64,000 nucleotides of DNA, taken from assembly GCF_002407185.1 (NCBI RefSeq), contig NZ_CP023563.1, forward strand, positions 2,666,001 to 2,730,000, read 5' to 3'. Shown in pieces: positions 47,303 to 47,370 of this stretch. Every line of letters begins with the position of its first letter. Within the stretch, counting starts at the first letter, position 1. The notes below the pieces were generated by a model, which saw nothing but the letters and a program-made list of their open reading frames with translations, was not told the origin of the DNA and made no database searches. This DNA comes from Brachybacterium vulturis. GTDB lineage: Bacteria > Actinomycetota > Actinomycetes > Actinomycetales > Dermabacteraceae. The translations under genes were made by a program, and so were the position numbers.

Positions 47303-47339
47303 CTCCCTTCCACGCCTCACAGGACGTGTCGTTAAAGGG
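47303..47339 (-). promoter_or_regulatory. PyrR-binding RNA element overlapping the pyrR ribosome binding site
   Basis: On the minus strand the leader reads TTTAACGACACG, then the conserved TCCTGTGAGG, then CGTGGAAGGGAG. CACG/CGTG (47325-47328 with 47311-47314) forms the upper stem below the TCCNGNGAGG loop. CCCTT/AAGGG (47335-47339 with 47305-47309) can pair below and take up the Shine-Dalgarno AAGGGAG. This matches the known PyrR-site pattern, in the translational-control form described for mycobacteria. Confidence 0.8.
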
Positions 47340-47364
47340 TGGTGTGCTCGGGTGAGCGTGGTCG

Positions 47365-47370
47365 ATCCTA
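47365..47370 (-). promoter_or_regulatory. Candidate -10 box for the pyrR operon
   Basis: TAGGAT on the minus strand, 71 nt before the pyrR ATG, in the gap after nusB. The resulting ~64-nt leader would contain the whole PyrR element. Confidence 0.4.

Follow-up and report, generated by a model that had tools for sequence, protein, structure and literature searches.

The pyr leader of Mycobacterium smegmatis is said to contain a PyrR site that occludes the ribosome-binding site, with no attenuator, and Fields and Switzer reportedly suggested that other bacteria use this mechanism, too. As the title of their report states, the M. smegmatis pyr operon is subject to PyrR-dependent translational repression (Fields and Switzer 2007, J Bacteriol 189:6236, doi 10.1128/JB.00803-07), so the mechanism discussed below has been known in kind since its publication in 2007. 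In the part of a 2013 survey that bears on this motif (PMC3766115), the figure given for the PyrR motif is 211 over 255 genomes, including those of Corynebacteriaceae and Mycobacteriaceae. A literature search that mostly lay outside subscription journals, and hence is no proof of absence, found nothing on PyrR in Brachybacterium.

The site analyzed here lies in the pyrR leader of Brachybacterium vulturis, within a 64,000-nt stretch of NZ_CP023563.1 (hereinafter, the window), for which a sequence-only reading had proposed translational PyrR control of pyrR. That interpretation is supported: the leader very probably carries an actinobacterial PyrR site of the translational type, which would occlude the pyrR Shine-Dalgarno (SD) sequence and serve, as one site, the whole operon. 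A mechanism tested in one mycobacterium is extended here to a large class sample with quantitative measures of conservation. Beyond the sequence-only reading, the analysis also brings out the loss of the site together with the pyr genes in genus g2, a site borne by carA in genus g53, and a probable hairpin at the 5' end of the transcript.

The pyr operon and its leader hairpin

The predicted operon consists of seven overlapping genes on the minus strand. The first one, pyrR (46668..47294, ATG start), encodes a protein with the Pribosyltran domain, and whole-protein alignment to solved PyrR chains (1w30, E 2.8e-51; 1a3c, E 3.3e-49) supports its identity; PyrR is encoded directly behind the site. 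The following genes are pyrB (45709..46671; OTCace_N and OTCace), pyrC (44376..45719, GTG start; Amidohydro_1 and DHOase), the PH-like gene bPH_11 (43885..44379; PF25362, E 1.3e-27), carA (42680..43888; CPSase_sm_chain and GATase), carB (39327..42680; an ORF that starts with MPRRPDL and was named by eye) and pyrF (38467..39330; OMPdecase). The overlaps of 4-11 nt that had been read between pyrR and carA are borne out by the gene coordinates (4, 11, 4 and 4 nt) and extend further, to carA/carB (1 nt) and carB/pyrF (4 nt). Because overlaps of 1-11 nt allow translational coupling, one occluded start could repress all seven genes. The bPH_11 gene, which overlaps pyrC and carA by 4 nt on either side, encodes an N-terminal hydrophobic stretch that is recognizable by eye.

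The whole predicted PyrR-binding hairpin occupies 47305..47339 of the minus-strand leader (CCCTTTAACGACACGTCCTGTGAGGCGTGGAAGGGAGAAGACCGCATG), and both its coordinates and its earlier description are confirmed. From 47339 to 47305, the sequence is CCCTTTAACGACACGTCCTGTGAGGCGTGGAAGGG, followed by AGAAGACCGC and then by the pyrR ATG at 47294. The hallmarks of PyrR sites are present, namely, TTTAA at 47336-47332 and, at 47324-47315, TCCTGTGAGG, which matches TCCNGNGAGG; in the pyrR leader, UUUAA thus stands on the 5' strand of the helix that flanks the UCCNGNGAGG hairpin. The upper helix comprises 6 bp (CACGUC/GGCGUG in the RNA), with 47328-47323 pairing with 47316-47311; its 5' strand, CACGTC (47323..47328), and its 3' strand, GGCGTG (47311..47316), are both delineated by covariation, RNAalifold and the predicted fold. 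The PyrR-site loop CTGTGA (47317..47322; CUGUGA in the RNA) is identified from the sequence and the alignment, and a 5' internal loop, TAACGA, lies between the two helices in the predicted fold. The lower helix comprises 5 bp (CCCUU/AAGGG in the RNA): its 5' strand, CCCTT (47335..47339), pairs with AAGGG (47309-47305), as indicated by sequence, covariation, RNAalifold and the fold, and this 3' strand is formed by the first five bases of the SD AAGGGAG (47303..47309). The lower helix accordingly takes up the pyrR SD, as had been proposed, and the pyrR ATG (47294-47292) stands 8 nt past it. The earlier pairing scheme is identical to the RNAalifold consensus except for the outermost upper pair (14-31), without which the program recovers both helices unaided, and both are also present in the minimum-energy fold of the leader.

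A search with the Rfam model RF00515 yields no match at the gathering threshold in the window, and the alignment of this model to the same stretch, at 24.8 bits and E 0.15, misses the gathering score of 54. That a 115-position PyrR model aligns to the hairpin at all is compatible with transcription attenuation as in Bacillus, where PyrR binding lets a leader terminator form. However, the match is limited to positions 4-37 of 115, and no terminator-like site is detected in a scan of 47100-47600, in agreement with the earlier observation of a leader lacking a terminator hairpin; nor was a terminator found between nusB and pyrR. Furthermore, the distance of only 8 nt between the SD and the start codon leaves no room for a terminator and an antiterminator. 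With the terminator absent and no room for one in the leader, attenuation was rejected and is considered extremely improbable, and occlusion of the SD remains the preferred reading. The RF00515 model presumably covers attenuator leaders, and we think that the low score is due to the model also spanning the attenuator part. Given that the standard Rfam model stays below threshold on the B. vulturis site, routine annotation would miss it.

Folding energy was rejected as evidence for the element because shuffled sequences do nearly as well. The folding of the 81-nt leader has a z-score of -0.59, with 53 of 200 shuffles being equally stable, and the folding energy of the 37-nt element is equalled by 108 of 2000 dinucleotide shuffles. 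What sets the PyrR element apart from chance is its conservation and not the energy of its fold. In the predicted ensemble, the probability is about 0.62 for the lower helix and 0.36-0.55 for the upper pairs, whereas the SD core (47308-47305) is predicted to be unpaired with a probability of at most 0.06, the rest of the ensemble pairing it otherwise. Since the SD core is paired in alternative folds, too, the contribution of PyrR may be less than the occlusion scheme implies. The predicted cost of opening the hairpin is about 4 kcal/mol.

Conservation and distribution of the PyrR site

The pyrR leaders were read in 75 genomes, 46 from the same family (B. vulturis included) and 29 from the wider class; the latter are the best 29 of the 191 class genomes with a pyrR match, and the set as a whole consists of the best-scoring loci and the rest of the family, not of a random draw. 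The PyrR site is found in 72 of these 75 leaders, i.e., in 43/46 from the family and 29/29 from the class, and all of these keep both the loop and the stems, the features that the sequence-only reading had singled out for comparison among relatives. The AAGG motif is present in 59/59 sites that were found by a pattern without it (30 family and 29 class leaders), and was part of the search pattern used for the remaining 16 family leaders.

The 72 sites reduce to 54 distinct sequences that align with short gaps only, and both predicted helices are supported by compensatory changes. Among five measures of covariation, for which the shuffles ignore the relatedness of the sequences, the fraction of paired cells (95.5% vs 88.2% in shuffles) and the number of cells changed on both sides (48 vs 19.4) are each reached by 0/500 shuffles. 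Two of the five measures are weak: the number of pairs that vary on both sides (4 vs 2.7) is reached by 7/500 shuffles and the number of further pair types (9 vs 10.8) by 500/500. When the partner is shifted by 1-3 columns, pairing falls to 48-61%. At the outermost lower pair, which lies on the SD, 28 of the 54 sequences have C-G, 17 have U-A and 4 have U-G, with 5 unpaired; at the upper pair 15-30, 24 have C-G, 18 have A-U and 11 have G-C, with 1 unpaired. The outermost upper pair (14-31) is absent from 19/54. The unpaired cell of one leader (L037) at columns 4-36 is explained by an offset of one column in the alignment. In the loop, all 54 sequences share C at position 1, G at positions 3 and 5, and A at position 6. 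Three distinct sequences show a change from GAGG to GAGA, two with U-A for U-G and one (L066) with a C-A mismatch. Counted by leader, GTGAGA replaces GTGAGG in five members of the genus (L061-L063, L065 and L066), and the upper-helix U-G becomes U-A in four of these, with the C-A mismatch in L066.

A covariance model built from the 54 distinct sequences was used for genome searches, with stricter filters in the larger ones. In the 3.8-Mb genome of B. vulturis, the model finds a single site, with 66.5 bits and an E-value of 1.7e-14 that is circular because the B. vulturis sequence is a training row of the model; no further site appears at E up to 10. Within the family, the site is present in 43/47 genomes, the others being G030, in which pyrR was not found, and G038, G039 and G041, which are discussed below. 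The class sample yields the site in 191/197 genomes, up to 30 of which supplied training sequences, and a pyrR match also in 191/197, one of these matches (G232) being weak (9e-4). All class genomes with a solid pyrR match possess the site (190/190); for 29 of these 190 and for B. vulturis, reading of the leader places it directly before pyrR. The site-less class genomes are G067, G089, G154, G165 and G183, all without a pyrR match, and G232; conversely, G086 has the site and no pyrR match. Two of the site-less genomes, G183 and G232, both 97% complete, encode carA and lack both pyrR and the site, apart from the weak pyrR match in G232. In a phylum-wide draw, 78/149 genomes match the model, which was trained within the class, and 71 do not. 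Second matches are rare. In G040, a weak one of 24.8 bits was rejected as a chance hit, as it covers model positions 10-32 only, without the TTTAA part and the SD helix; G206 has two matches near contig ends, and G122 also has a second match.

The arrangement of these features suggests the following scheme. When UMP is plentiful, nucleotide-loaded PyrR would bind the UCCNGNGAGG hairpin and lock the two-helix fold in which, judging from structure prediction and covariation, the pyrR SD is base-paired, so that ribosomes could not start on pyrR. Translation of the seven overlapping genes, pyrR-pyrB-pyrC-PH-carA-carB-pyrF, is probably coupled, such that a single site would lower the expression of all of them. 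At low UMP, PyrR would leave, the hairpin would open and the operon would be translated; no transcription attenuator would be involved.

The promoter region and the 5' end of the transcript

A candidate -10-like box, TAGGAT (47365..47370, minus strand), of the probable pyrR promoter lies upstream of the hairpin and corresponds to a TANNNT box in the leaders of the genus. This box precedes the lower helix in 37/37 genus leaders, at a distance of 11-50 nt (24-28 nt in 28/37), in the variants TAGACT (19), TAGGAT (8), TACACT (5), TACGAT (4) and TAAGCT (1). A sigma-70 promoter scan of 47100-47600 detects no site, and no -35 partner passed. The sequence-only reading had named a transcription start downstream of the element as an argument against itself; because the TANNNT box precedes the lower helix in all 37 genus leaders examined, the start likely lies upstream of it. 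Immediately upstream of the pyrR promoter, one leader (L063, genome G011) has long C and G runs adjoining a stretch of N, which probably reflect faulty assembly.

Between the box and the PyrR site, the leader contains the inverted repeat GCTC-ACCC-GAGC (47346..47357, minus strand), which has counterparts in other genus leaders. In 29/37 genus leaders, a stem of 4 bp or more begins 6-7 nt past the -10 box, compared with 2.6 expected from mononucleotide shuffles; with a looser count, stems anywhere between the box and the site are found in 30/37, vs 12.6 expected. The arms are GCTC/GAGC in 17 leaders, GATCG/CGATC in 5, GCTCG/CGAGC in 2, and five single types, including CGGTCC/GGACCG and CGATCGTGC/GCACGATCG. 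In 8/37 leaders, the hairpin is missing at this place and the PyrR site is nonetheless present. As a position 6-7 nt past a -10 box is the usual transcript start, the pyr mRNA in the genus of B. vulturis probably begins with a small hairpin at its very 5' end.

An inverted repeat at the predicted +1 in 29/37 leaders, far above the 2.6 expected, could also be the operator of a DNA-binding repressor, with GCTC-N4-GAGC (47357-47346) providing a second layer of control at the transcription start. The arms, however, vary in sequence from species to species and still pair, as would be expected of an RNA hairpin more than of a fixed operator, and the operator explanation appears very unlikely. In other bacteria, 5'-terminal hairpins protect mRNA, and by analogy, the RNA hairpin may protect the pyr mRNA. 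The same hairpin at the probable 5' end in 29/37 leaders, given the protective role of such structures elsewhere, would be expected if PyrR binding mainly altered mRNA stability or Rho access, with the loss of translation as a by-product. Nevertheless, in 59/59 leaders, the covarying lower helix has the SD-like AAGG at its end, a feature that would be needless in a pure stability element, and the 5' hairpin is missing at this place from 8/37 genus leaders that have the PyrR site. Thus, an effect primarily on stability or Rho access is very improbable, and repression by occlusion of the pyrR SD is the preferred reading here as well.

Site loss, displaced carA and relation to known systems

Two natural experiments, operon loss and operon split, bear on the mode of control. 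In genus g2, which belongs to the same family, three of the four genomes (G041, G038 and G039; leaders L087-L089, respectively) keep pyrR and lack the PyrR site. In their leaders, the stop codon of the upstream gene (nusB by eye) is located immediately 5' of the pyrR SD, and the genes next to pyrR are not pyr genes but resemble, by eye, mihF, gmk, rpoZ, coaBC and metK. In these genomes, which are 99% complete, searches detect no pyrC match and no carA match better than 2.6e-5, and it is on the pyrC and carA searches that the loss of the pyr genes rests. The fourth genome (G040; leader L090) retains the site along with pyrC and carA. PyrR has a dual role as regulator and uracil salvage enzyme, and in the site-less g2 genomes, it is presumably kept for uracil salvage.

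Searches of 69 genomes of genus g53 with the covariance model and with CarA left only G258 without a match to either. Among the 26 genomes with one site, carA is 2.8-3.0 kb from the site in 25, as in a compact operon, and G246 has no carA match. Another 42 genomes have two sites; one of these (G262) was set aside since its two sites are on two contigs and both lie at the compact distance of 2850 nt from carA. In 41/41 of the rest, one site is located -12 to 77 nt from where the carA match begins. Both sites are on the same contig in 39 of these 41 genomes, and there the distance from the first site to carA is 2.9-25.9 kb, with G279 (2.9 kb) alone in the compact range. Seven carA sites of this genus, taken from the class draw (L077-L083), were read; all possess a TANNNT box and the same hairpin, and in 7/7, the lower helix contains the SD AAGGAGG immediately ahead of the carA start. 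A displaced carA site was not found in a search of the literature on PyrR with Microbacterium carA, from which subscription journals were mostly absent.

Given that a carA displaced from pyrRBC bears a site of its own over its SD, control seems to travel with the occluded start codon. The loss in g2 and the displacement in g53, which are correlations across related genomes, fit control predicted at the gene start and not attenuation. We lean slightly toward a broader proposal: PyrR sites in actinomycetes could be portable translation switches bound to gene starts and not operon leaders, as suggested by the displaced carA that carries its own box and site and by the loss of the site when the pyr genes are deleted and pyrR is kept. 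In the genus of B. vulturis, such a switch would be coupled to a 5'-terminal RNA hairpin that begins with the transcript itself and is preserved through compensatory changes.

Comparison with the two closest described systems places the B. vulturis site as follows. Like RF00515, it has a UUUAA-type internal loop, a GUCCNGNGAGGC hairpin and a flanking helix; unlike the Rfam model, it matches positions 4-37 only, with 38-115 unmatched and no antiterminator and terminator. Like the M. smegmatis pyr operon, the pyr genes of B. vulturis are predicted to be controlled by PyrR at translation. The two appear to differ in that B. vulturis belongs to another actinomycete lineage and has an extra predicted 5' hairpin upstream and all seven genes overlapping. 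In B. vulturis, the outer pair is C-G, with the SD AAGGGAG, whereas U-A takes this place in 17 of the 54 compared sites, a set that does not include the M. smegmatis leader. By the features tested, the predicted B. vulturis element belongs with the translational PyrR sites of actinomycetes.
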